Below, piece after piece: positions 45,815-64,000 of a stretch of 64,000 bases of DNA. A program made the translations under genes and the position numbers. The stretch covers positions 1,116,001 to 1,180,000 of the forward strand of contig NZ_CP162412.1 in the NCBI RefSeq assembly GCF_040931995.1. Reading direction: 5' to 3'. The notes below the pieces were generated by a model that did no database searches, was not told the origin of the DNA, and saw only the letters and a list, made by a program, of their open reading frames with translations. This DNA comes from Pelagovum sp. HNIBRBA483. Its GTDB lineage: Bacteria; Pseudomonadota; Alphaproteobacteria; Rhodobacterales; Rhodobacteraceae. Position 1 is the stretch's first letter. Each line of letters opens with the position of its first letter.

Positions 45815-46978
45815 TCAAACGGCGATGGGCGTAAGCCATACTGGGCTTTCGCTCGAAGCGCTGTCCACGACCGCCTCGACGAAGGCCACGCCTTTGAGGC
45901 CGTCATAGGCGAGAGGCACGTTTTGCCCCAAAGGTCCGGGCGCGCGCCCCGCCGAACGCGCGCGGATCGCTTCTGCAAAACCGGAATAAATGTTGGCAAA
46001 TGCTTCGAGGTAGCCCTCGGGGTGGCCGGGCGGGGTGCGCATGCGAACCTGTGCATCCGCCGATAGCTCGTCTGAACCGCGTTTGATCAATTGAACCCGT
46101 CCGCCAAGTGGTTGGAAAACCAAGTCGTTCGGTTGCTCTTGGAACCATTGGAATGATCCCTTATCGCCGAAGACGCGCAGGCGGATTCCATTCGAGTTGC
46201 CTATCGCGACCTGTGACGACCAAAGAAGCCCGCGCGCGCCGCCTTTGTAGCGTATCATGACATGGGCATTATCGTCCAACGCGCGCCCCTCGACAAATGT
46301 GGCTATATCGGCGGTTAAACTTTCGAGTTCCAGCCCGGTCACAAAACCCGCCAGGTGGTAGGCATGGGTGCCGATGTCACCGATTGAACCGCCGCGTCCA
46401 TTCTTGGTCGGATCGGTGCGCCAGGCAGCCTGGGCGTTGCCCTCTGCCTCGATGGCGGTCGCCATCCACTCTAGAGGGTATTCCACTTGTACGGTTCGGA
46501 TTTTGCCAATTTCTCCGTTGGCGATGCGCACCCTTGCTTCGTGGATCATCGGGTAGCCGGAGTAGGTATAGGTCACGCCGACGAAGCGGCCGGATTCGCG
46601 GGCGAGCTTTTCCAGTGCGACTGCGTCGTCGAGCGTTGCGGTCAACGGTTTTTCGCAAATGACATCAAAGCCAGCCTCTATGAGCGCTTTGGCGATGGGG
46701 TAGTGGGTGAAGTTCGGCGTGCAAATAGCAACCGCATCGACGCGATCTTCGCGGCTGGCTTCGCCAGCGATCAATGCCTTGTAGTCGCCATATGCGCGGT
46801 CCTCGTTCAGGCCTTGTGATAAAGCGAATGCGCGGCCTTTTTCAGGATCGACGTCAAATGCGCCAGCGACCAGATCCCAAGCGCCGTCGAGGCGGGATGC
46901 TATGCGATGAATGTTGCCGATATAAGCGCCTTCGCCGCCGCCGACCATGCCGAGGCGCAGTTTGCGTTGATAGCTCAT
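45815..46978 (-). CDS. Gfo/Idh/MocA-family oxidoreductase
   Basis: This 387-residue NAD(P)-dependent sugar or cyclitol dehydrogenase is the last gene of the minus-strand operon. The Rossmann motif is LGMVGGGEGAYIGNIHR. ICTPNFTHYPIAK is the second motif and VICEKPLT holds the catalytic-domain EKP. GGSIGDIGTHAYHLAGFVTG carries the active-site DxxxH. The preferred ATG is at 46978. The stop of the TIM-barrel gene is two bases before it. Pairs of such dehydrogenases with xylose-isomerase-like barrels often act on 3-keto sugars; this is inference from family knowledge. Confidence 0.9.
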   Translation of the reverse strand: MSYQRKLRLGMVGGGEGAYIGNIHRIASRLDGAWDLVAGAFDVDPEKGRAFALSQGLNEDRAYGDYKALIAGEASREDRVDAVAICTPNFTHYPIAKALIEAGFDVICEKPLTATLDDAVALEKLARESGRFVGVTYTYSGYPMIHEARVRIANGEIGKIRTVQVEYPLEWMATAIEAEGNAQAAWRTDPTKNGRGGSIGDIGTHAYHLAGFVTGLELESLTADIATFVEGRALDDNAHVMIRYKGGARGLLWSSQVAIGNSNGIRLRVFGDKGSFQWFQEQPNDLVFQPLGGRVQLIKRGSDELSADAQVRMRTPPGHPEGYLEAFANIYSGFAEAIRARSAGRAPGPLGQNVPLAYDGLKGVAFVEAVVDSASSESPVWLTPIAV

Positions 46979-46980
46979 AG

Positions 46981-48045
46981 TCAATTCTCCAGTCCGAGCA
47001 TTTGCCGGTTCGCCTTTTGATCCGCGCCAGATTTGACAAAATCGTCGAACGCGCGATCCGATATTTTAATGATGTGATCCGAGATGAATTCTGCGCCTTC
47101 TCGCGCACCATCTTCAGGGTTCTTGATGAAGCATTCCCACTCGAGGGTAGCCCAACCATCGAAGCCGTAAGTAGAAAACTTGGTGAAGATCGTGCCAAAA
47201 TCGACTTGTCCGTCACCGGGGCTGCGGAAACGACCGGCCCGCTTTGACCAAGGCATAAAGCCGCCGTAGGCGCCGGATTTTCCATCCGGTCGGAACTCGG
47301 CATCTTTGACATGGAAGGCTTTGATACGGTCATGGTAGTGGTCGATGAACGCCAGATAGTCCAAGGCCTGAAGCACGAAATGGCTAGGATCGTACATGAT
47401 GTTGGCGCGTGGGTGATGGCCCACTTTTTCGAGAAAGTATTCCCATGAATGGCCGTCGTGCAGATCCTCGCAGGGGTGAATTTCGAAGCAGGCGTCAACG
47501 CCGTTTGCGTCAAACTCGTCGAGCAGCGGCTTCCAGCGCGCCGCCAATTCCGTAAAGGCATCGTCCACAAGCCCTTCTGGCCATTGTGGATAGGGGTAAA
47601 GGTAAGGCCAAAGGAGCGAGCCCGAAAATGTGGTATGCGTGGTGATCCCAAGGCGATTAGACGCCCGCGCGGCCAATCGCAGCTGTTCCTCCGCCCATGC
47701 GCGCCGCGCGGTGGGGGAGCCACGCACATGATCGGGCGCAAAACTGTCCATGATCTGGTCATGGGCTGGATGGACGGCGACCAACTGGCCGGTGATGTGC
47801 GAGGCGAATTCGGTGAGGGTCAGGTCATGGTCGGCGAGCAACCCCTTGATTTCGCTCGCGTAGGTTTCACTTTCGGCCGCACGCTTAATGTCAATAAGCC
47901 GCGTATCCCATGTCGGGATTTGCACACCTTTGAAGCCCTTTTGCTGCGCCCATTTTGCGAGGCTTGGCAAACTGTCATAAGGGGGGTCGTCGGCGGCGAA
48001 TTGCGCGAGAAAGACGGCGGGGCCTTTGATCGTTTTCATCGTCAT
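46981..48045 (-). CDS. Sugar phosphate isomerase/epimerase-like TIM-barrel protein
   Basis: The protein has 354 residues in an AP-endonuclease-2/xylose-isomerase-like barrel. Metal ligands appear at FEIHPCED (Glu), MYDPSHF (Asp and His), FHVKDAEF (His) and LEWECF (Glu). GDGQVDF is a family loop near the C-terminus. Members isomerise, epimerise or eliminate 3-keto sugars or inosose-type compounds. The ATG overlaps the SDR stop in ATGA form. The specific reaction is unknown. Confidence 0.85.
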   Translation of the reverse strand: MTMKTIKGPAVFLAQFAADDPPYDSLPSLAKWAQQKGFKGVQIPTWDTRLIDIKRAAESETYASEIKGLLADHDLTLTEFASHITGQLVAVHPAHDQIMDSFAPDHVRGSPTARRAWAEEQLRLAARASNRLGITTHTTFSGSLLWPYLYPYPQWPEGLVDDAFTELAARWKPLLDEFDANGVDACFEIHPCEDLHDGHSWEYFLEKVGHHPRANIMYDPSHFVLQALDYLAFIDHYHDRIKAFHVKDAEFRPDGKSGAYGGFMPWSKRAGRFRSPGDGQVDFGTIFTKFSTYGFDGWATLEWECFIKNPEDGAREGAEFISDHIIKISDRAFDDFVKSGADQKANRQMLGLEN

Positions 48046-48854
48046 AATTGCAGGGCCTCATCGGGTACGGGCGCGTCATCGTAGGCGCCCCAGATGGATT
48101 GGTCGAAATTGACGATCGTTCCGGTCATCATTCCGCTATCGTTAGACGCCATCCAGAGAACGGCTTTTGCAACTTCCTTCGGGTCGAGAATGCGACCGAA
48201 TGGCTTTGCGGCGGCAGCGCGGTCTATGAAATGTGGGTCGCCTGTCTCGAACTCGATCAATTTGCGCTCATGGTCGGAATTCATCCAGCCAATCGAGAGC
48301 TGGTTTACATGTATCCTGTTGCGCATGAGGGCAAAGCCTGCGTTCCGTGTGAGTGTCGCCAATGCGCCTTTGGACGCGGAATAGGGGCAGAGGAAAGGTT
48401 GGCCTGCGTGTTCGGACATGGAGCCGATATTGACAATGCGCCCTTCAACGCCTTCGCGGATCATGATTTTGGCGGCATCCTGCATCAGGAAGAAAGGCGC
48501 GCGAACGTTGACGGCGAACATGCTGTCGAACAGTTCGGCACTTGTGTTCATGATATTCCCGCGATCCGTTAGGCCTGCGGCGTTGACGAGAATGTCGACC
48601 CGGCCGAAGGTTTCATCAGTCTCGGCCATGATCCGGTGTACGTCCTCGAGATTGCCCAGATCGGCCGCGACCATGCGCACATCTATGCCAAAAGCTGCGC
48701 CAATCTCTGTGGCGACTTTCTCGCCCTTTTCGCGGCCTCGGCCGACAAGCACTATTCCTGCGGCGCCGGCTTCGGCGAACTGGCGGGCAATTGCCGCGCC
48801 TAGGCCTTGCGTTCCGCCAGTAATGACAGCGATCTTTCCGTCTATCCGGTTCAT
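48042..48854 (-). CDS. Short-chain dehydrogenase/reductase (SDR)
   Basis: This classical SDR of 270 residues has TGGTQGLGAAIARQFAEAG, NAAGLTDRG and the catalytic YSASK with the upstream Ser in NIGSMSEHAG. It probably oxidises or reduces a hydroxyl of a sugar or cyclitol intermediate. The ATG at 48854 overlaps the iolE stop by four bases, and its own stop overlaps the next gene, so the operon is translationally coupled. Confidence 0.9.
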   Translation of the reverse strand: MNRIDGKIAVITGGTQGLGAAIARQFAEAGAAGIVLVGRGREKGEKVATEIGAAFGIDVRMVAADLGNLEDVHRIMAETDETFGRVDILVNAAGLTDRGNIMNTSAELFDSMFAVNVRAPFFLMQDAAKIMIREGVEGRIVNIGSMSEHAGQPFLCPYSASKGALATLTRNAGFALMRNRIHVNQLSIGWMNSDHERKLIEFETGDPHFIDRAAAAKPFGRILDPKEVAKAVLWMASNDSGMMTGTIVNFDQSIWGAYDDAPVPDEALQL

Positions 48855-49747
48855 TCCACTACCTCGTATCCTGCGATATCCATCACGTTTTTGAGCGTTC
48901 TGCGCCCCTTGATTGCCATCTCTAGAGGCGGGTGCGCCACCGGATCTTGTTCGGCTTCGATTACAAACCATCCTTGATAGCCCTTGGCGGCGAGGGCTTT
49001 AACGATCTCTTCAAAGTCGAGGGAGCCATCACCGGGAACTGTGAAGGCGCCCTTGATGACCGCATCAAGAAAGCTTTCGCGGCTTCGGTCCAACCCATTA
49101 ATCACGTCGAAGCGCACATCCTTGGTGTGGACATGCGCTATTCGGGCATGGTGATTGTCGATCACGCGCAGATTATCGCCGCCGGCGAACGCCATATGGC
49201 CCGCATCGAACAGAAGTGGCACTGACGAGTTCTGCATGAACATGTCGAGTTCGGCCTCTGTTTCGACTACGGCTGCCATGTGGTGATGGTAGGCGATCGG
49301 CATGCCCTGCGCTGCGCACCAGTCCGAAAAATCCGATATCTTGCGCCCATAGACGGCCATCTCGGCCTCGGTCAATCGCGGCTTTTGGGCAAGTGGAGTG
49401 TAGCGTTCCCCTTGCACCGAGCGCGCTGTTTCGCCGTAAACAATGCATGGCGCTCCGGCTTCCTTGAAAAAGGTAAGTTGAGCTGCGATCCTGTCTTTTT
49501 CGGCTTCGATGTCGCCATCGAGCAGCAGTCCGGAAAACCATCCGCCACAAACCGACATTCCGTGCCGTGCGAGGGTTGGGCCAAGTTCAGCCATATTCAT
49601 GGGGAAGCGACGGCCGGTTTCCATGCCGCTAAGCCCTGCCGTGGCAGCCTGTCGTAGACATTCGTCGAGCGAAACATCATCCGACAGGCTCTCCAGATCG
49701 TCGTTCCACCACGCTATCGGGGCGATCCCTAGTCGCGCTTGCAACAT
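48851..49747 (-). CDS. iolE: Myo-inosose-2 dehydratase-like protein
   Basis: IolE dehydrates 2-keto-myo-inositol to the trihydroxycyclohexane-dione. The 298-residue protein begins LGIAPIAWWNDDLE, the usual opening. It continues with LGPTLARHGMSVCGGWFSG, AYHHHMAAVVETEAE, LLFDAGHMAFAGGD, HVHTKDVR and TVPGDGSLDFEEIV, matching inosose dehydratases and their metal ligands. The ATG at 49747 is chosen because iolD stops four bases before it. It sits directly downstream of iolD. Confidence 0.85.
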   Translation of the reverse strand: MLQARLGIAPIAWWNDDLESLSDDVSLDECLRQAATAGLSGMETGRRFPMNMAELGPTLARHGMSVCGGWFSGLLLDGDIEAEKDRIAAQLTFFKEAGAPCIVYGETARSVQGERYTPLAQKPRLTEAEMAVYGRKISDFSDWCAAQGMPIAYHHHMAAVVETEAELDMFMQNSSVPLLFDAGHMAFAGGDNLRVIDNHHARIAHVHTKDVRFDVINGLDRSRESFLDAVIKGAFTVPGDGSLDFEEIVKALAAKGYQGWFVIEAEQDPVAHPPLEMAIKGRRTLKNVMDIAGYEVVE

Positions 49748-49751
49748 GCGA

Positions 49752-51626
49752 TCACACGCCCCGGCGTTGTTTCTGGCGGAACGCTTCCTGACCTGCTCGT
49801 GCCTGGCGGATGCTTTCACGGTTGTTGATCTCGGGAACGCCGACGTACCAATCTGCACCGCCGGGCGTCCATGTGTAGGCATCTGAATTGATCACCAAAA
49901 CGGTTGTGCGATCAGTGCCTTGTGCCCATTCCATATTGACCTCGAGGTCAGCGAGGCTCTCGCAAAAGCGGGCTTCGGCGCCCATGGCGCGGGCGTGCGA
50001 GACGAAATCAACGTGCAAAGGATTGTCCTTGTTCTGCACGCGGCTGTCTTTAAGCAAGTTATTGAAGCCAGGAACGCCCATGCCGGTTTGCAAGCGGTTG
50101 ATGACGCCAAAACCGCCATTGTCGCAGACCACGACAATCATTTTATGGCCGGACAAGACTGTCGAATAGATGTCGGAGTTCATCATCATGTATGAGCCAT
50201 CGCCAACCATGACGATTGGCACACCGGTTTGAGTGCCGTCTGGGCTGGTTTTGGCCATTGCGTGCCCCCAACCACCCGCGATTTCATAGCCCATGCAGGA
50301 AAACCCAAACTCGAGGTCATAAGTGTTCGGGGCTTTTACGCGCCAGTTCTTGGCCGTTTCGCCGGGGAGGCCGCCGGCGGCCGTGACCATCGTATCCTCC
50401 TTGCGGGCCATCTTGTTCACCACGCCGATGACCTGCGCATACGAGGGTAGGGCGCTATTTGTCGGGGTTTGGCCCTCGTCCAGTGCCGTGTTCCATTCAG
50501 CGTAGAGCTTTTGAGCGCGCTCCATTTGTGCGGGATCGCAAGCCCAATCGCCCAGCTCGGCGTCGATTTCTTGGATGCATTCCAATGCGTCCCCGACCAC
50601 AGGCACCGCGAAATGTTTGCTGGCGTCAAAGCGCGCCGCGTTGATGTTCAGGAATTTCGCGTCCTTGGCGAATGTAGTCCAAGAGCCTGTTGTGAAATCC
50701 TGCATTCGAGTGCCGACGGCAATCACGACATCGGCAGTTTCTGCCAGTTCCTTCGCTGCGTCGGTTCCCTCGATCCCCATTGCACCCACATTCACAGGGT
50801 GATCATGCACGATCCCCCCTTTGCCAGCGATGGTTTCCGCGACGGGAATGCTACGACGCTGAGCAAAGTCGGCCAGCAATTCATTCGCGCCGGAGTAACG
50901 CACACCGCCGCCGGATATGATCAATGGCTTTTTAGCCGATTTCAGCAGCGCGACAGCAGCAGCGACCTCGTTACGAGAGGGCCGAGGACGCGGTATGATC
51001 CACGTTTTTTCGGCAAAGAAACTTTCCGGGTAATCATAAGCGATTTCCTGAATGTCCTGTGGCAGACCGATGAAGGCAGGCCCGCAATTGGCGGGTTCGA
51101 GCATCGTTGTCAGTGCTTGCGGCAGTGACGATAGAATCTGTGCCGGATGGGTGATCCTGTCCCAGAAGCGGGTCACGCTGCGGAAACCGTCATTGACTGT
51201 CGTGGAGGGGCTTCCGAAATGCTCGACCTGTTGCAGAACGGGATCCGGCAAACGGTTTGTGAATGTGTCGCCCGACAGTAAAAGAAGCGGTAGTCTGTTA
51301 GCGTGAGCGGTGCCTGCGGCAGTGATCATATTCGTCGCGCCCGGTCCGACAGAGGATGTTGCAATCATGATCTGCCGGCGAAGCTTGGCTTTCGCGAAAC
51401 CGACGGCGGCAAGGGCCATCGATTGTTCGTTTTGTCCGCGCCAAGTGGGAAGGCGGTCTTGAACTTGCTCAAGCGCTTCTGACAGGCAGGTGACATTGCC
51501 ATGGCCGAAAATGCCGAAAACGCCTGCAAACAACGGCACCTTTTCGCCGTCAACTTCGGTATACTGGTTACACAGATAACGCACTATCGCCTGTGCCATG
51601 GTCAGATTGACTGTTTTGTCGGACAT
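49752..51626 (-). CDS. iolD: 3D-(3,5/4)-trihydroxycyclohexane-1,2-dione hydrolase
   Basis: IolD is a thiamine-diphosphate enzyme that opens the cyclitol ring to 5-deoxy-D-glucuronate. It has 624 residues. LFAGVFGIFGHGNVT and GQNEQSMALAAVGFAKA form the N-terminal domain with the catalytic Glu-containing segment. GDTFTNRLPDPVLQQVEHF is the IolD-specific region. The ThDP motif is GDGSYMMMNSDIYS to CDNGGFGVINRLQ. GGAGGA lies before the ATG at 51626. A promoter with -35 TTGCAA and -10 TATACA lies upstream and overlaps the RpiR-type motif. Confidence 0.93.
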   Translation of the reverse strand: MSDKTVNLTMAQAIVRYLCNQYTEVDGEKVPLFAGVFGIFGHGNVTCLSEALEQVQDRLPTWRGQNEQSMALAAVGFAKAKLRRQIMIATSSVGPGATNMITAAGTAHANRLPLLLLSGDTFTNRLPDPVLQQVEHFGSPSTTVNDGFRSVTRFWDRITHPAQILSSLPQALTTMLEPANCGPAFIGLPQDIQEIAYDYPESFFAEKTWIIPRPRPSRNEVAAAVALLKSAKKPLIISGGGVRYSGANELLADFAQRRSIPVAETIAGKGGIVHDHPVNVGAMGIEGTDAAKELAETADVVIAVGTRMQDFTTGSWTTFAKDAKFLNINAARFDASKHFAVPVVGDALECIQEIDAELGDWACDPAQMERAQKLYAEWNTALDEGQTPTNSALPSYAQVIGVVNKMARKEDTMVTAAGGLPGETAKNWRVKAPNTYDLEFGFSCMGYEIAGGWGHAMAKTSPDGTQTGVPIVMVGDGSYMMMNSDIYSTVLSGHKMIVVVCDNGGFGVINRLQTGMGVPGFNNLLKDSRVQNKDNPLHVDFVSHARAMGAEARFCESLADLEVNMEWAQGTDRTTVLVINSDAYTWTPGGADWYVGVPEINNRESIRQARAGQEAFRQKQRRGV

Positions 51627-51667
51627 CGCGGCTTCCTCCCGTTGACGGATTCTCCTCAGTTGTGAAA

Positions 51668-51708
51668 TGTATATTGACATTGATCGATCGTTGCAACGAT
51701 CATTGCGA
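51668..51708 (-). promoter_or_regulatory. iolD promoter overlapped by an RpiR-type operator; site 1 of 3
   Basis: Reading toward iolD, TTGCAA (51691-51696) is followed 17 bases later by TATACA (51668-51673). The operator motif TTGCAA-CGATCA-TTGCGA lies at 51691-51708 on the plus strand and covers the -35. A 16-base perfect palindrome, GATCGTTGCAACGATC, lies at 51686-51701. On the plus strand TTGACA (51674-51679) suggests an iolG promoter across the same site. Confidence 0.6.
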
Positions 51709-51728
51709 AAATTCACGGGGAGGATTCC

Positions 51729-52736
51729 ATGCTGAGAATTGCCGTCTTGGGGTGCGGGCGTATTGGTCGCATGCATGCCGAAAATATCCATGCCCACCCA
51801 CGGGCGGAGCTAGCGGGTGTATTCGACGTTGTTGAAGCAGCCGCGAAAGAGGTGGCTGCGAATTTGTCGGTTAAGCAATTTGCCAGCGCGGACGATATTT
51901 TCAGTGCCAATGAGGTTGATGCGGTTCTCGTCGCGACGTCGACGCCAACGCATGCGGATTTCATCGAAGCGGCGGTAACGGCCGGAAAGCCTTGCTTATG
52001 TGAAAAGCCGATTGACCTGTCGGTAGCGCGCGTCAAGGCATGTGCATCAGCCATTGCAGGGACGACAGTGCCGATCATGTTGGGCTTCGTGCGGCGGTTT
52101 GACAAAGGTCATGCGGCGGTTCGCGCTGCCATAGAGGCCGGACAGATCGGCGACGTGCATCAGGTGGTGATTACTTCGCGTGATCCCGATATCGCGCCGG
52201 ATGCCTATATCGAGGTTTCGGGCGGTATTTTCAGAGACATGACGATCCATGATTTTGACATGGCGCGGTTTATTATGGGCGAAGAGTTCGAAACGATCTC
52301 GGCGGTTGGTGCGAGATTGGTCGCTCCCGCACTTATGGAACGGTGCGACGACTACGACACCGTGACAGTCACCATGACCACGGCATCTGGAAAGCAATGC
52401 GTGATCTCAAACTCGCGGCGGGCTGTCTACGGCTATGATCAGCGTGTTGAAGCCTTTGGCACGGGAGGTATGGCGATTTCGGAAAACCATCCGGAGAACA
52501 ATGCAAGGCTTTATGGTGGCGCCTATACTGACCAAAAAGCGCCGCTGTTGAATTTCTTTATTGAACGCTACGCACAGGCGTTCGCGTCCGAGATTGATGC
52601 TTTTGTTGACGCGGTCGAAAACGCCGCGCCGCCTGCCGTTGGTTTTGATGATGGTCACAAGGCACTGTTGCTCGCTGAAGCGGCGTTGATCTCGGTGCGC
52701 GAAGGTCGGCCGGTGCATCTGAAAGAGGTTGAGTAA
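51729..52736 (+). CDS. iolG: Inositol 2-dehydrogenase-type oxidoreductase
   Basis: IolG oxidises myo-inositol at C2 with NAD+. The 335-residue Gfo/Idh/MocA protein begins LRIAVLGCGRIGRMHAENI. ATSTPTHADFIEAAV and CLCEKPIDL follow. VSGGIFRDMTIHDFDMARF and SNSRRAVYGYDQRVEAF are IolG-specific in my memory of the family. It is divergent from iolD across a 102-base region. The next gene starts three bases after its stop. Confidence 0.9.
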   Translation: MLRIAVLGCGRIGRMHAENIHAHPRAELAGVFDVVEAAAKEVAANLSVKQFASADDIFSANEVDAVLVATSTPTHADFIEAAVTAGKPCLCEKPIDLSVARVKACASAIAGTTVPIMLGFVRRFDKGHAAVRAAIEAGQIGDVHQVVITSRDPDIAPDAYIEVSGGIFRDMTIHDFDMARFIMGEEFETISAVGARLVAPALMERCDDYDTVTVTMTTASGKQCVISNSRRAVYGYDQRVEAFGTGGMAISENHPENNARLYGGAYTDQKAPLLNFFIERYAQAFASEIDAFVDAVENAAPPAVGFDDGHKALLLAEAALISVREGRPVHLKEVE

Positions 52737-57163: not shown

Positions 57164-57187
57164 TTTTTGCAACAACTATTGCAAAAA
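57164..57187 (+). promoter_or_regulatory. RpiR-type operator before the sugar ABC operon; site 2 of 3
   Basis: TTTTTGCAA (57164-57172) and TTGCAAAAA (57179-57187) form a nine-base inverted repeat around a six-base spacer, within the motif TTGCAA-CAACTA-TTGCAA (57167-57184). A TTGACA at 57195-57200 lies just downstream and could be the -35 of the ABC promoter. Confidence 0.6.
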
Positions 57188-57279
57188 AATAAATTTGACA
57201 AATTTTGCTTTATGGGAAAAGCTAGGACCGAGGCGGCCCGTTTGTGCGACCGTCTTGGAAAACATTGGGAGGAAACCAA

Positions 57280-58302
57280 GTGAAAAAAACTATTCTGCTC
57301 GCATCAATGGCAGCAGCCATGATTGCAACCGATGCAGTCGCACAAGACCTGACGGTTTGTGTAAGCTGGTCGAATTTCCGTGAGGAACGCTGGAAGACGG
57401 ATGAAGCTGCAATCGTGGGCGCTCTTGAAGCCGCTGGTGCAAAATACGTTTCGGCTGATGCGCAGACCTCTGCGACAAAGCAGCTGGCGGATATCGAAGG
57501 CATGATCACCCAAGGATGCTCCTCGATTATCATTCTTGCACAGGACTCCGCGTCGATCGGACCGGCTTTGAACGCTGCCGAAGACGCTGGTGTGCCGGTC
57601 GTTGGATATGACCGCATGATCGACGACCCGCGTGCCTTCTACCTGACCTTTGACAATGTGGAAGTTGGCCGGATGCAGGCGCGTGCGGTCTTGGAAGCGC
57701 AGCCGACTGGCCGGTATGTCATGATCAAGGGTTCGCCGGTTGATCCGAACGCAGACTTCCTGCGTGGCGGTCAGCAAGAAGTGCTGCAAGAAGCGCTGGA
57801 CTCCGGTGCGATCGAAATCGTGGGCGAAGCCTACACTGACGATTGGCAGCCTGCAAACGCGCAGCGCAACATGGAGCAAATCCTGACACAGACCGACAAT
57901 GGCGTTGACGCTGTTGTGGCCTCGAATGACGGAACCGCAGGTGGTGTTGTTGCTGCCCTGACGGCGCAAGGCATGGCGGGTATCCCGGTTTCTGGCCAGG
58001 ATGGTGACATGGCTGCACTGAATCGCGTGGCGCTGGGCACTCAGACGGTTTCCGTCTGGAAAGACAGCCGCGCACTGGGCCGCAAAGCAGGCGAGATCGC
58101 TGTAGCATTGGCAACCGGTACTGCAATGGCTGATGTTGAGGGCGCTGCCACCTTTACGTCCCCGAGCGGCAAAGAGCTGACCTCGGTCCTGCTCGCACCG
58201 CAGCCGATCACGCAGGACAAGCTGGATATCGTTCTGGACGCTGGCTGGATCTCGAAAGAGACACTCTGTGCAGGCGTGACGGGACTGGCTGTTTGCGAAT
58301 AA
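57280..58302 (+). CDS. Sugar ABC transporter, XylF-like periplasmic binding protein
   Basis: The protein has 340 residues. A signal peptide ends DAVAQ. FREERWKTDE, YDRMIDDPRAFYLTFDN, GSPVDPNADFLRGGQQEVL and VVASNDGTAGGVVAAL match D-xylose-binding XylF closely. GGGAGG at 57267-57272 fixes the GTG start at 57280. The gene starts the ABC operon. Whether the substrate is xylose, inositol or another sugar cannot be said from sequence alone; Cys pairs near the C-terminus (ETLCAGVTGLAVC) look like a disulfide. Confidence 0.88.
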   Translation: MKKTILLASMAAAMIATDAVAQDLTVCVSWSNFREERWKTDEAAIVGALEAAGAKYVSADAQTSATKQLADIEGMITQGCSSIIILAQDSASIGPALNAAEDAGVPVVGYDRMIDDPRAFYLTFDNVEVGRMQARAVLEAQPTGRYVMIKGSPVDPNADFLRGGQQEVLQEALDSGAIEIVGEAYTDDWQPANAQRNMEQILTQTDNGVDAVVASNDGTAGGVVAALTAQGMAGIPVSGQDGDMAALNRVALGTQTVSVWKDSRALGRKAGEIAVALATGTAMADVEGAATFTSPSGKELTSVLLAPQPITQDKLDIVLDAGWISKETLCAGVTGLAVCE

Positions 58303-58396: not shown

Positions 58397-59698
58397 ATGA
58401 GTGACAGAGACGCCGCGTCAGGAGCGCCAACTCCGAAACGTAATATTTTTGAAACCTTGGAACTGGATGTGAGGTTGTTGGGAATGTTGGTGGCGTTTTT
58501 TGCCATCACATTGGTTTTCACAATCTGGACAGGTGGAACGTTCATTCAGCCCAGAAACGTGTTCAACATCACGGTTCAGACGGTACCCGTAGCGATCATG
58601 GCATGCGGCATGGTCTTCGTGATTGTCTCGCGCCACATCGACCTCTCTGTTGGCTCCATGTTGGCAATGTGTTCTGCTGTCATGGCTATGATGCAGGCAT
58701 ACTGGCTGCCGTCACTTTTCGGATTGGAATATGGCAGCCCCCTGATCCTTTTGCTGACAATCGTAATCGGGTTTGCTGCTGGTACAGCGATGGGGGCAGC
58801 TTCGGGTTGGTTGATTGGATACCAAGCGATCCCGTCATTCATCGTCACTCTTGGCGGACTGTTTATTTGGCGTAACGTCAACTGGTTCACGACCAATGGT
58901 CAATCTGTTTCCCTGACTGACCCAAATCTGCTGATGTTCGGCGGCACCGAAGGCGTTCTTGGGGCTCAATGGAGCTACGCTGTCGGGATAGGGGCGTCGA
59001 TCGCTGCTGTCGCAGTGTTGTTGTCAGCCCGCCGCAATAAGGTCCGCCATGGTTTCATGGTGAAACCGGTTTGGGCAGAAGGCGTGATGATGGCACTCAT
59101 AGTCGGTTCGATTATGTTGTTCGTTGGGTGGCTCTCTCGGTACCCGATACCCGCAGGCAAATTGCGCCGCATGTTCGAGGCGCGCGGAGAGGTGGTGCCA
59201 GAAGGCTATACCGCGATGCATGGTCTGCCGATTTCGGTTTTGATTTTGATCCTCGTCGCGGTGGGGATGACCGTGATCGCGCTCAAGACGCGCTTTGGTC
59301 GCTATATCTTTGCAACGGGGGGCAATCCGGATGCGGCTGAACTTTCCGGTATCAACACGAAATTTCTGACGGTGAAGGTTTTTGCGCTGATGGGCTTTCT
59401 CTGCGCCGTCGCCGCGCTGATCGCGCAAGCACGACTGCAAAGCCACGGCAACGATATCGGCATGCTTGAAGAACTGCGGGTTATTGCGGCCGCCGTCATT
59501 GGCGGAACCGCGCTGGCTGGAGGTGTCGGGACGATTTACGGTGCCGTGCTCGGCGCGCTGATCATGCAGTCTCTGCAATCGGGCATGGCGATGGTCGGTG
59601 TCGATACGCCGTTCCAGAATATCGTGGTTGGCCTTGTCCTGATCATCGCTGTCTGGGTTGATATCATTTATCGTAAACGTGTGGGGATCGCAAAATGA
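58397..59698 (+). CDS. Sugar ABC transporter, XylH-like permease
   Basis: The protein has 433 residues and about ten membrane helices. [20 protein letters not shown] is the family signature, followed by [41 protein letters not shown] is the conserved cytoplasmic loop and [20 protein letters not shown] the final helix pair. The sequence follows XylH more than RbsC. It overlaps the ATPase gene by four bases. Confidence 0.9.
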
Positions 59699-60456
59699 CC
59701 AACGAAGCAAAAACGCCACTTGTTGAGATGCGCGATATCTCTATCGCTTTCGGAGGTATTAAGGCGGTGGATCATGTCTCCATTGACCTTCACCCCGGGG
59801 AGGTTGTTGGATTGCTTGGGCACAACGGTGCTGGCAAATCGACGCTTATTAAGTGCCTCTCCGGTGCATACCAAAGAGATAGCGGTGATATCTTCATCGA
59901 CGGAAAGAAGGTTCAGATCGATAATCCGCGCGACGCGCGTGCGCATAATATCGAGACGATTTATCAGACCCTTGCGCTCGCGGACAACCTTGACGCTGCT
60001 TCCAATCTCTTTCTGGGCCGCGAACTGATGCGGAACGGGTTGGTCGATGATGCGAAGATGGAAGCTGAAACGCGGAAGATCATGGGAAGGCTGAACCCGA
60101 ACTTCAAGAAGTTCAACGTTCCTGTAAGTGCATTGTCTGGTGGACAGCGGCAATCCGTTGCGATTGCCCGGGCCGTGTACTTCAATGCAAGAATTCTCAT
60201 CATGGATGAGCCGACTGCGGCGCTTGGACCGCATGAAACTCAAATGGTGGCTGAGTTGATCGCAGAGCTGAAGGCCCATGGCATTGGTATTTTCCTGATC
60301 GAGCATGACGTTCATAACGTGATGAAGCTATGCGACCGAGCGAGCGTTATGAAGAATGGCGAGCTTGTGGGAACCGTCAATGTCGCCGACGTGACGGATG
60401 ACGACATCCTCGGAATGATCATTCTTGGTAAGAAGCCGGCGCATTTGGCTGCGTGA
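59695..60456 (+). CDS. Sugar ABC transporter, single-domain ATPase
   Basis: The protein has 253 residues and one ABC domain, roughly half the size of XylG or RbsA. Walker A is [10 protein letters not shown], the signature is [15 protein letters not shown] and Walker B is [13 protein letters not shown]. The H-loop His lies in [10 protein letters not shown]. Single-domain partners of this permease class exist in alphaproteobacteria (FrcA-like). Its stop is followed by GAGG, which serves the next gene's GTG. Confidence 0.92.
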
Positions 60457-60465
60457 GGTCCTGCT

Positions 60466-62088
60466 GTGCGCGCGCCGTCAAGGCAGGTAAACAAACGTAC
60501 CGTCGATACAAAACACCCCAAGCGCGGTAAGACAGGGGCCTTTCTGCTATGCGCGCTTGGGGTATGTTTTGCCAGTCATGCCAATTTTGCTTTGGCCGAC
60601 GTGGCTTTTGTCGATCGTTCTGCGGCACTTCCGGCCGAGCATGTCTATGATGGTGGCTGGAACTTCTTCGTCGGCGGTGGTCTCGCTGTTTTTGACTGCA
60701 ACGGCGACCGCCTGCCGGACGTGTTTGCCGCAGGTGGCAGTAACCCGGCGCGGTTGTTGATCAATGCATCGGAGCGCGGCGGTGATATCGGCTTCGAACT
60801 TGGCGCGCTGCCGGTGATAACAAGCGTTACCGGAGCTTATCCTCTCGATGTCGATAGCGACGGGGTGCTTGACTTGGTTGTGCTGCGCCACGGTGAAAAT
60901 ATTCTCCTACAGGGGTATGGGGAGTGCCGTTTTGCGGAAGCACCGCCAGCTTGGAACTTTCAGGGCGGCAATGAATGGACCACTTCTTTTACAGCCACTT
61001 TTGAAAGAGGGCAGGGGTGGCCGACGCTGGCGTTCGGAAATTACGTTGATGAAACGAACCCGGAAGGTCCGTTTGCGGCGTGTGATGCAAACTATTTGAT
61101 GCGCCCTAATGGGCGGTCATTTGCCAAACGCAGGGCTTTGGAACCCGGTTATTGCGCGCTGTCGATGCTCATATCGGATTGGAAACGCAACGGTCAGCCT
61201 GACCTTAGAATATCGAATGACCGGCAATATTATGTGCGGGAAGGTCGTGAGCAGATGTGGAGCCTTGACCCGCTGAGAGAATATTCCGCAGCAGATGGTT
61301 GGCCCGAGCTGAAAATTTGGGGAATGGGGATCGCAAGCCGCGATTTGACAGGCGATGGGCTTCCTGAGGTTGTCCTGACCTCTATGGGCGATCAGCAAAT
61401 CCAATTAAACCAAGGTAACGGCATCATGACTGCCGCGCCTTACACGATTGGTACTTATGCCACGACACCCTATGTCGGCGACGATGGGCGCCCCTCTACG
61501 GGTTGGCATGCCGCGTTCGGTGATTTCGACAATGATGGCCGCGATGATCTGTTCATTGCGAAAGGGAATGTCGATCAAATGCCTTCCAACGCTATTCATG
61601 ATCCGAACAACCTCTTGATGCAGAACACTGACGGGACCTTCACGGAATGGGGCGAAATAACCGGTATTGGGACGACTGAGCGTGCGCGGGGCGCGTCGTT
61701 GGTGGACCTCAACAATGATGGCTTGCTCGATATTTTAGTGATCAACCGTCGGGCCCCGATGGAGGTATGGCAAAACCGTTCGGTGAATACTGGAAACTGG
61801 ATCACGCTCGATTTGGTGCAAAAAGGTGCCAATTCTGACGCGATAGGGGCCTTTGTCGAGCTGAGACTGCCGGACGGGCGCATCTTGACCCGTGAAAGGA
61901 CGATTGGGGGTGGCCATGCGTCGGGGACCGTTGGGCCGCTGCACTTTGGCTTGGGGGCGGCTGAGGCCGCGTCTATGCGGGTTATCTGGCCGGACGGCGA
62001 GGAAACGGAGTGGGCGGAGATCGGCTTGAACACTGCCTGGACGGTCACACGAGACGTCGGCGCAGCGCCGGTACTCAGGGAGGAATGA
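60466..62088 (+). CDS. Secreted FG-GAP/VCBS repeat protein with an ASPIC/UnbV-like C-terminus
   Basis: The protein has 540 residues. After a basic start and a hydrophobic segment ending FALAD it is exported. Five Ca2+-binding-type loops occur: FDCNGDRLPDVF, LDVDSDGVLDLV, RDLTGDGLPEVV, GDFDNDGRDDLF and VDLNNDGLLDIL, spaced as in a beta-propeller. The last 100 residues (GAFVELRLPDGR, GGGHASGTVG, VIWPDGEETEW) fit ASPIC/UnbV. GAGGT lies before the GTG at 60466, and the ABC ATPase stop is 10 bases away. It is followed four bases later by the di-heme peroxidase gene. The role is unknown. Confidence 0.85.
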   Translation: MRAPSRQVNKRTVDTKHPKRGKTGAFLLCALGVCFASHANFALADVAFVDRSAALPAEHVYDGGWNFFVGGGLAVFDCNGDRLPDVFAAGGSNPARLLINASERGGDIGFELGALPVITSVTGAYPLDVDSDGVLDLVVLRHGENILLQGYGECRFAEAPPAWNFQGGNEWTTSFTATFERGQGWPTLAFGNYVDETNPEGPFAACDANYLMRPNGRSFAKRRALEPGYCALSMLISDWKRNGQPDLRISNDRQYYVREGREQMWSLDPLREYSAADGWPELKIWGMGIASRDLTGDGLPEVVLTSMGDQQIQLNQGNGIMTAAPYTIGTYATTPYVGDDGRPSTGWHAAFGDFDNDGRDDLFIAKGNVDQMPSNAIHDPNNLLMQNTDGTFTEWGEITGIGTTERARGASLVDLNNDGLLDILVINRRAPMEVWQNRSVNTGNWITLDLVQKGANSDAIGAFVELRLPDGRILTRERTIGGGHASGTVGPLHFGLGAAEAASMRVIWPDGEETEWAEIGLNTAWTVTRDVGAAPVLREE

Positions 62089-62092
62089 GATA

Positions 62093-63424
62093 ATGCGTTT
62101 CTTACCGTTGATCTTGCTTTGTTTGCCGACGGCGATTTACGCACAAGCCTTGCCAGAGCCTCTGACCGACGCTGACTTTCCCAAGGCGAATATGGAAGAG
62201 ATTGCGCTCGGGCAACTTCTGTTCTGGGACGCTGAACTGTCGGGAAATCGCAACATCTCATGTGCGAGTTGTCATCACCCGCGGTTTGGTACTTCGGACG
62301 GGTTGTCGCTGGGCATTGGGGAAGGAGGTCTCGGTTTGGGGCCGGATCGACGCCCAAATCCGGACAACCCTCCGGAGCAACGTATCCCGCGTAATGCGCC
62401 GGCCCTTTGGAATGTAGGCGCGGCTGGGTTTACCGTGCTTTTTGCCGATGGTCGGATCGAAGTAGATCACAACCGGCCAACTGGGTTCAGAACCCCGCTT
62501 GAGGATGAGATGGTGCAAGGTTTTAACTCGCTCCTTTCAGCGCAGACCATGTTCCCTGTATTGTCGCAAGATGAGATGGCAGGCCATTACAGCGAGAATG
62601 AGATCGCAGCGCTGGTGCGCACTGGACGCCTTACTGGAAGTGACGGTGCGTGGGCGGCTATAGCGGCGCGAATTGACGCCATCCAAGAATATCAGGCGCG
62701 TTTCCGCCAAGCCTATGCAGAAATTTCTGGTGGGCGAGAGATCAATTTCACCGATATTTCGAATGCAATTGCCGCCTATATGGCATTTGATTTTCGATCA
62801 GACACTTCGCCATTCGATGCATTTCTGCGCGGCGAAGATAGCCTCGATGCTGATGCGCGTGCAGGGCTTGAACTGTTTTATGGGGATGCCGGTTGTAGCA
62901 CTTGCCACAGTGGGCCGTTGCTGAGTGATATGTCTTTCCATGCAATGGGAGATGTTCAGATCGGACCGGGCAAGGCGGAGCGTTTCGAGACGCACCAACG
63001 CGATACCGGACGCATGCGCGTTACCAACAGGGCAGAGGACGCCTATGCTTTTCGGACGCCTTCGTTGCGAAATGTTACGCTGACGGCGCCCTATGGGCAT
63101 TCAGGCGCCTTCGCCGATTTGGAAGCGTATTTGCGCTCACACATCGCGCGGGGAGGCCAGATCGCTGACTATGACACGACCGAGGCCATTTTGCCGGAGA
63201 TGACCCTTTCCAAACCGGATTTGGCACCCGATGCGGCCGGAGCGGATTTTGCTGGCATCTACGCGGCGGCGCAATCAATGCCCGCACAGGAAGTTGAACT
63301 AGAGGACCGCGAAATCAAACAATTGATGGCATTTCTGAAGTCTCTTGAAGACCCCATAGCGCGAAGTGGTGGGCGCTTGGGGATCCCTGAAAAAGTCCCT
63401 TCGGGATTGCCGGTTGAGCGCTGA
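62093..63424 (+). CDS. Periplasmic di-heme cytochrome c peroxidase/MauG-family protein
   Basis: The protein has 443 residues after a signal peptide ending IYAQA. Two c-type heme motifs are present: CASCH (57-61) and CSTCH (268-272). The gap of about 211 residues is larger than in typical bacterial CCPs, and the C-terminus is longer. AFRTPSLRNVTLTAPYGHSGAF is the family C-terminal motif. Members reduce hydrogen peroxide or, like MauG and MbnH, oxidise partner-protein residues. Its neighbour is the UnbV-like protein. Regulation would follow the upstream operator. Confidence 0.88.
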   Translation: MRFLPLILLCLPTAIYAQALPEPLTDADFPKANMEEIALGQLLFWDAELSGNRNISCASCHHPRFGTSDGLSLGIGEGGLGLGPDRRPNPDNPPEQRIPRNAPALWNVGAAGFTVLFADGRIEVDHNRPTGFRTPLEDEMVQGFNSLLSAQTMFPVLSQDEMAGHYSENEIAALVRTGRLTGSDGAWAAIAARIDAIQEYQARFRQAYAEISGGREINFTDISNAIAAYMAFDFRSDTSPFDAFLRGEDSLDADARAGLELFYGDAGCSTCHSGPLLSDMSFHAMGDVQIGPGKAERFETHQRDTGRMRVTNRAEDAYAFRTPSLRNVTLTAPYGHSGAFADLEAYLRSHIARGGQIADYDTTEAILPEMTLSKPDLAPDAAGADFAGIYAAAQSMPAQEVELEDREIKQLMAFLKSLEDPIARSGGRLGIPEKVPSGLPVER

Positions 63425-63435
63425 GTAGATCGCTT

Positions 63436-63470
63436 TTGACTCTTTCTAATTATTGCAACGATTGTTGCAG
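63436..63470 (+). promoter_or_regulatory. RpiR-type operator and promoter before the regulator gene; site 3 of 3
   Basis: TTGACT (63436-63441) is a -35-like element. TTGCAA-CGATTG-TTGCAG lies at 63453-63470. The distance from TTGAC to TTGCAA is 17 bases, the same as at the iolG site (51674 to 51691). This fits autoregulation. Confidence 0.6.
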
Positions 63471-63543: not shown

Positions 63544-64000
63544 ATGGTAACGCAGGACGGATCGCCACCGGCGGACTATGAAGAACTCATCCGGTTGATC
63601 CACGACCGCTTCGAGCAGATGAGCAAAACGTATCAAAAAATTGCCGAGTATCTGACCCAGAACCCCAATGAAGTTGCGGTCCAGTCGGTGAACGCGATTG
63701 CAGCGCATTGCGATATTCATGCATCCAGTTTTGTCCGGTTCGCGCAGTCGTTGGGTTATAGCGGCTTCAAGGATTTGCAATCACTGTTTCAGCGGCGACT
63801 TTCTACCGCGGCGCCCGGTTTTGAAGCGCGAAAGAAAGCTTTGGAGGGCGAACTCTCGAGGCGGGAGGACCGCTCGGAATACGGTTTTTTGCGCGATCTG
63901 GTGGTGAGGGATATCGCTTCATTGCAAGACCTGCTGGAAAAAATGGATGCTGGTGACATTGCCCGTGCCGCGGAAATGATCGAAAGAGCCGGTACGGTTT
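63544..64000 (+). CDS. RpiR/MurR-family transcriptional regulator (partial, cut by window end)
   Basis: The first 152 residues are visible and the frame stays open to the edge. The N-terminal HTH_6 region reads IHDRFEQMSKTYQKIAEYL and SVNAIAAHCDIHASSFVRF, then AQSLGYSGFKDLQSLFQRRL. The C-terminal SIS sugar-phosphate-binding domain should begin near the end of the fragment. AGGAGA precedes the ATG at 63544. It sits at the end of the island and is the natural candidate to bind the TTGCAA-N6 motif. Confidence 0.92.
   Translation, partial: MVTQDGSPPADYEELIRLIHDRFEQMSKTYQKIAEYLTQNPNEVAVQSVNAIAAHCDIHASSFVRFAQSLGYSGFKDLQSLFQRRLSTAAPGFEARKKALEGELSRREDRSEYGFLRDLVVRDIASLQDLLEKMDAGDIARAAEMIERAGTV

Follow-up and report, generated by a model that had tools for sequence, protein, structure and literature searches.

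Two proteins with predicted export signals, an UnbV/CRTAC1 propeller protein and a di-heme protein of the CCP/MauG superfamily, are encoded side by side in Pelagovum sp. HNIBRBA483. Their co-inheritance, and a linkage that survives rearrangement, strongly support the view that they form a functional pair. UnbV is the constant member of this pair and its partner is exchangeable.

The two genes lie in the window, the whole stretch of 64,000 nucleotides that was analysed, at 60466..62088 (unbV, + strand, with a GTG start and GAGGT six bases ahead of it) and 62093..63424 (ccp, + strand). They stand directly behind a set of ABC transporter genes, all on the + strand, namely a xylF-like gene for a substrate-binding protein (57244..58302; Peripla_BP_4, and TIGR02634 with 431 bits, above the cut-off of 389.55), a xylH-like permease gene (58397..59698; BPD_transp_2, 125 bits) and a xylG-like gene for a single-domain ATPase (59695..60456; ABC_tran, 115 bits). 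The intergenic gaps amount to 9 nt between xylG and unbV and to 4 nt between unbV and ccp; the ORFs, their coordinates and the very short gaps were exactly as given in the original prediction.

The assignment of unbV was made from Pfam matches, a fold model and conservation. The encoded protein matched FG-GAP_3 (94.7 bits) and UnbV_ASPIC (52.2 bits) in the family scan, both above the gathering score, and the top PDB match of its AlphaFold2 model (pLDDT 90.9) was murine CRTAC1 (9etn, TM 0.75, E 1.4e-22). Its conserved residues include a near-invariant Trp65 (precursor numbering; codon at 60658..60660, + strand) and four Cys (78, 154, 206, and 230). For ccp, the assignment was based on a CCP_MauG match (121.7 bits in the family scan), on alignment to MbnH and bacterial peroxidases, and on an AlphaFold2 model; the two CXXCH motifs occupy residues 57-61 and 268-272. 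The N-termini of both proteins read as export signals. The 211 residues that separate the heme motifs had been described as unusually long. The count was correct, but the spacing was 205-212 residues in all orthologs and 208-209 in paralogs; 211 is thus the subfamily norm, and heme spacing was ruled out as a special trait.

Among 101 relatives searched, the UnbV subfamily was found in 34 genomes, with one weak match set aside. The di-heme ortholog was present in 23 of the 101, and UnbV was encoded in all 23 of them versus 11 of the 78 others (p = 9e-15, uncorrected for kinship). When the di-heme gene appeared to be alone, UnbV was located elsewhere in the genome in five of the six such genomes searched. 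A profile search with one genome per genus of the family detected UnbV in 195 of 395 genomes; matches were rarer in the wider class and phylum, and one fell outside the class. In a merged set of 225 non-redundant UnbV-subfamily loci, the di-heme ortholog was located within 5 kb of UnbV in 152, a proportion that, like those from our other locus sets chosen by similarity to the window genes, holds for this subfamily only. The functional pairing proposed in the original prediction is thus strongly supported by co-occurrence across genomes, and a pair unlinked in most genomes is not what these loci displayed.

The orientation was convergent in 146 of the 152 linked loci, tandem in four and divergent in two, the window being a further tandem case. 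A tandem pair behind xylFHG, as in the window, was also observed in Alexandriicola marinus and in three other loci. The linked pair was mostly found within D-xylose clusters. In a set of 57 loci selected for resemblance to the di-heme protein, UnbV was adjacent in 50 and xylFHG was nearby in 45, and the commonest order was ccp> <unbV <xylR xylF> xylH> xylG> xylB> xylA>. In Phaeobacter inhibens DSM 17395, a laboratory strain that is harmless, plasmid pPGA1_262 carries the cluster in its standard form (xylGHF-ROK-CRTAC1-CCP), with an aldose epimerase gene behind it. The di-heme protein is encoded there by PGA1_RS18330 and UnbV by PGA1_RS18335, and the counterpart of Trp65 in this UnbV is precursor residue Trp43. 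No description of the UnbV/di-heme pair was found in the literature searched, the coverage of which was incomplete.

At loci without the di-heme ortholog, the gene overlapping or adjoining unbV often encoded either a DHOR di-heme protein or a member of the PAP2 superfamily. Thus, the remaining UnbV loci of the 225 carried a haloperoxidase-like gene (28 loci), a DHOR gene (8 loci) or neither (37 loci, 8 of which lie at contig ends). The PAP2 partner set scored 350 bits to the vanadium-dependent haloperoxidase 4cit and has kept the Lys/Arg/Ser-Gly-His/Arg/His anion site; we call these proteins vanadium-haloperoxidase-like, a class in which sequence alone cannot separate a haloperoxidase from a phosphatase. 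The DHOR partner proteins are only distant kin of the CCP/MauG group. When 103 UnbV proteins were placed in a tree, those linked to a haloperoxidase-like gene formed one side of a branch and the CCP-linked proteins were nearly all together, while the DHOR pairing required two or three changes. The partner therefore tracks the UnbV lineage and was swapped a few times, not many. Among loci where no partner was found nearby, two had a short-chain dehydrogenase gene between unbV and xylR (L184:3503-4474 and L185:2820-3656), and another had a fatty-acid-desaturase-family gene directly after unbV (L167:9233-10198).

UnbV proteins from partner-bearing genomes, whether the partner was linked or unlinked, were then compared with those from partner-less genomes, a very divergent UnbV (L122) being excluded. 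The di-heme profile was run genome-wide on all orphan genomes, and the haloperoxidase and DHOR profiles on those still without a partner. Residue 65 was Trp in every scoreable linked locus but one, which was DHOR-linked, and Trp was kept in 18 of 18 genomes with an unlinked di-heme ortholog, as well as in one genome with an unlinked DHOR gene. Three lineages had no UnbV-type partner. One is a clade of four genomes (G058, G009, G018, and G1090), three of which had the general di-heme paralog only, whereas G009, which is 82% complete, gave weak partial matches; the others are G649, which is 100% complete and nested inside the CCP-linked clade, and G267. Position 65 was Thr/Leu/gap/Glu in the clade of four, Pro in G649 and Phe in G267. 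Of 96 columns that were near-invariant (at least 97%) in partner-bearing proteins, that of Trp65 was the only one altered in all three partner-less lineages. Such a column was obtained in 0.4% of trials in which equal numbers of changes were placed at random (P = 0.004), and in 0.8% at looser thresholds, in a comparison that was post hoc and covered three lineages.

There were exceptions to this pattern. Phe65 was found in three DHOR-bearing genomes (G623, where the gene is linked, and G130 and G492, where it is unlinked), which argues against maturation at Trp65, as does the retention of Trp65 in G255 and G348, two genomes without a close partner that have distant MauG-like genes only. Two further features were considered and rejected: a CorA-like Kyn-x-His copper site made of Trp65-x-His67, His67 being common only in CCP-linked loci and replaced by Phe in the window, and Trp285 as a second, crosslinked Trp, a residue exchanged for Phe in no more than a few genomes of the orphan or DHOR type.

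The reading that we prefer, and to which we give about an even chance, is that the di-heme enzyme oxidatively matures UnbV at or near Trp65. The exported di-heme enzyme would be activated by hydrogen peroxide and would draw electrons from the exported UnbV/CRTAC1 propeller, which would be oxidised once, as a maturation step, at or beside Trp65. In its oxidised form, the propeller would then work in the periplasmic handling of the sugar imported by XylFHG. In other lineages, a DHOR-type di-heme protein or a vanadium-haloperoxidase-like enzyme would do the oxidising. We infer the oxidation of UnbV, Trp65 as its site and the role of the mature protein alike. More tentatively, the product could be a Trp-derived oxidised residue at or near Trp65, installed interchangeably by a His/His di-heme MauG-like enzyme, a DHOR protein or a vanadium-dependent haloperoxidase. 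UnbV is also kept, often in xylose clusters, where no partner was found, and thus the modification would not always be needed. The earlier proposal that UnbV is oxidised by its partner gains indirect support from the replacement of the partner by two other families and from the loss of Trp65; the MauG chemistry invoked along with it is not simply transferable, because the heme ligands differ from those of MauG and MbnH.

At the second axial ligand position of the C-terminal heme, the di-heme protein has His350, which aligns with the Tyr ligand of MbnH and corresponds to Tyr294 of MauG; this residue is His in 64 of 65 orthologs. The inter-heme Trp is missing, with FADGR (Ala118) in the window and FHDGR in most orthologs versus FWDGR, although it is absent from BthA too. 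The acid-base Glu is probably Glu161, which belongs to an invariant EMAG motif. Compared with Pseudomonas CCP, Glu77 stands in the alignment at the distal His71, a hint of an open peroxide site, and His350 lies at the Met275 ligand position. The Y294H variant of MauG and the Y463H variant of BthA abolished the bis-Fe(IV) signal, and BthA Y463H retained peroxide reduction (PMC6405878). His ligation thus counts seriously against MauG-type chemistry, since these Tyr-to-His variants form no bis-Fe(IV). The fold cannot choose between the known enzymes, because the AlphaFold2 model (pLDDT 85.4) matched MbnH (6e1c, Z 28.3), bacterial peroxidases (27-28) and MauG (27) nearly equally. The genome also encodes a second di-heme protein (G000:C1:1697213-1698469, or L118:7214-8467), 48% identical and located away from UnbV, with a divergent Sel1-like ORF beside its gene; similar paralogs occur in many relatives.

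Other explanations were weighed against oxidative maturation. UnbV could itself be a sugar-acting oxidase, or form a redox chain with its partner, with Trp65 as an electron-transfer or docking residue; UnbV would oxidise or bind the sugar, leaving its haem or vanadium partner to consume peroxide or carry electrons. The FG-GAP propellers that match the UnbV model include the sugar-acting aldos-2-ulose dehydratase 4a7k and a Psathyrella lectin, but these matches, of low identity, are to the propeller fold in general, and UnbV showed no recognisable cofactor site. Also in favour of this explanation, UnbV is linked to xylose genes as well as, in P. inhibens, to the gene for an aldose epimerase, and peroxide is used, or believed to be used, by all three partner types. 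However, if partners of unrelated fold share a key residue, it is more naturally a site of modification than one of docking, and UnbV persists without any partner; we thus regard this explanation as unlikely.

We see a slightly smaller chance that ccp encodes a common hydrogen peroxide reductase guarding the periplasm during sugar uptake, next to UnbV as an unrelated sugar-binding protein. This would be consistent with the CCP_MauG superfamily and with a fold that matches bacterial peroxidases as well as MbnH, whereas the residues found at the His71 and Met275 sites of Pseudomonas CCP, and a co-inheritance with UnbV that is complete in our sample and survives rearrangement, argue against it; nor does it offer a reason for the loss of Trp65 in UnbV. 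It is improbable that the partners act on a third target, a small molecule or the cell surface (for example, by halide or aromatic oxidation), with UnbV merely anchoring or guiding them. One propeller serving as a scaffold for unrelated folds would require several interfaces, and the loss of Trp65 would be left unexplained, even though haloperoxidases produce diffusible hypohalous acid and 26 of the 28 haloperoxidase-linked loci lacked xylose genes in the retrieved sequence, which was short for many loci.

The sugar context of the window was also analyzed. A motif scan detected an operator-like palindrome, TTGCAA-N6-TTGCAA, before xylF (57167..57184), and the same TTGCAA-N6-TTGCAR palindrome between ccp and an rpiR-type gene (63453..63470) and between iolD and iolG (51691..51708). 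Seven matches were obtained at two mismatches or fewer versus 0.05 expected, and two related sites were found in A. marinus. The upstream myo-inositol region (45818-52736) contains iolG (409 bits, cut-off 355), iolD (804 bits, cut-off 715) and iolE (382 bits, cut-off 290), together with sugar dehydrogenase genes, and a xylose isomerase gene also lies upstream. The three palindrome copies at the inositol-type, xylF and RpiR-gene promoters suggest a small local regulon. The RpiR-family gene (63544..64000, + strand, running off the window; HTH_6, 62 bits) probably regulates the operon in this genome, and in this lineage control of the operon may have passed to an RpiR regulator of the inositol type. 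With such control, the transported sugar may be xylose, inositol or both. In the xylR-xylF intergenic regions of the 42 convergent loci tested (within L061-L117), the palindrome AATTtATTTTGACAAaTaAATT was found, which is the probable XylR operator. The idea that XylR also controls the di-heme gene was rejected, as the region upstream of ccp did not exceed the 99% level of shuffled sequence in any of the 42 loci.

If oxidative maturation is confirmed, the large bacterial CRTAC1/UnbV family would gain its first testable chemistry, sugar use would join amine oxidation and copper among the settings of partner-oxidising di-heme enzymes, and non-homologous enzymes would be seen to carry out the same protein modification. 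One residue, Trp65, is singled out by the loss pattern as a testable site.

Finally, the pair was compared with known systems. The window UnbV shares its Pfam families and fold with the CRTAC1/ASPIC-UnbV family but, unlike CRTAC1, it is bacterial, predicted to be exported, has four conserved Cys and has a partner oxidase; no pairing of CRTAC1 with an oxidase was found in the literature searched. The di-heme protein has two CXXCH motifs, the fold and the expected peroxide chemistry in common with bacterial cytochrome c peroxidases, from which it differs by His for Met at the C-terminal heme and by Glu77 for the distal His71. Its top NCBIfam match was TIGR03981 (His-Xaa-Ser system-associated MauG-like; 252.5 bits, below the cut-off of 340), a family that is the best match of the paralog as well.

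As in the maturation of the tryptophan tryptophylquinone of pre-methylamine dehydrogenase by MauG, a CCP_MauG di-heme enzyme of the same fold is found with an exported partner. Unlike MauG, the window protein has His350 for the Tyr ligand and lacks the inter-heme Trp, its score to the MauG equivalog TIGR03791 (105 bits) was far below the cut-off of 443.85, and no methylamine dehydrogenase genes were present in the neighbourhood examined. MbnH/MbnP, CorA/CorB and MopE/SACCP, in which Trp is converted to kynurenine, likewise combine an adjacent di-heme enzyme with a secreted partner carrying a candidate Trp; in CorA and MopE, the Trp is oxidised to kynurenine and a MauG-like gene lies alongside (PMC3912023). 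MbnH is the closest structural match of the di-heme protein, tied with bacterial peroxidases. In contrast to the MbnH-type pairs, the partner in the window is a CRTAC1 propeller, the context is sugar and not copper, and His replaces Tyr; the di-heme protein scored 132 bits to the MbnH model TIGR04039, against a cut-off of 362.85, and its neighbour is UnbV, not MbnP. The pair thus resembles the MauG and MbnH pairs in kind but belongs to neither family.
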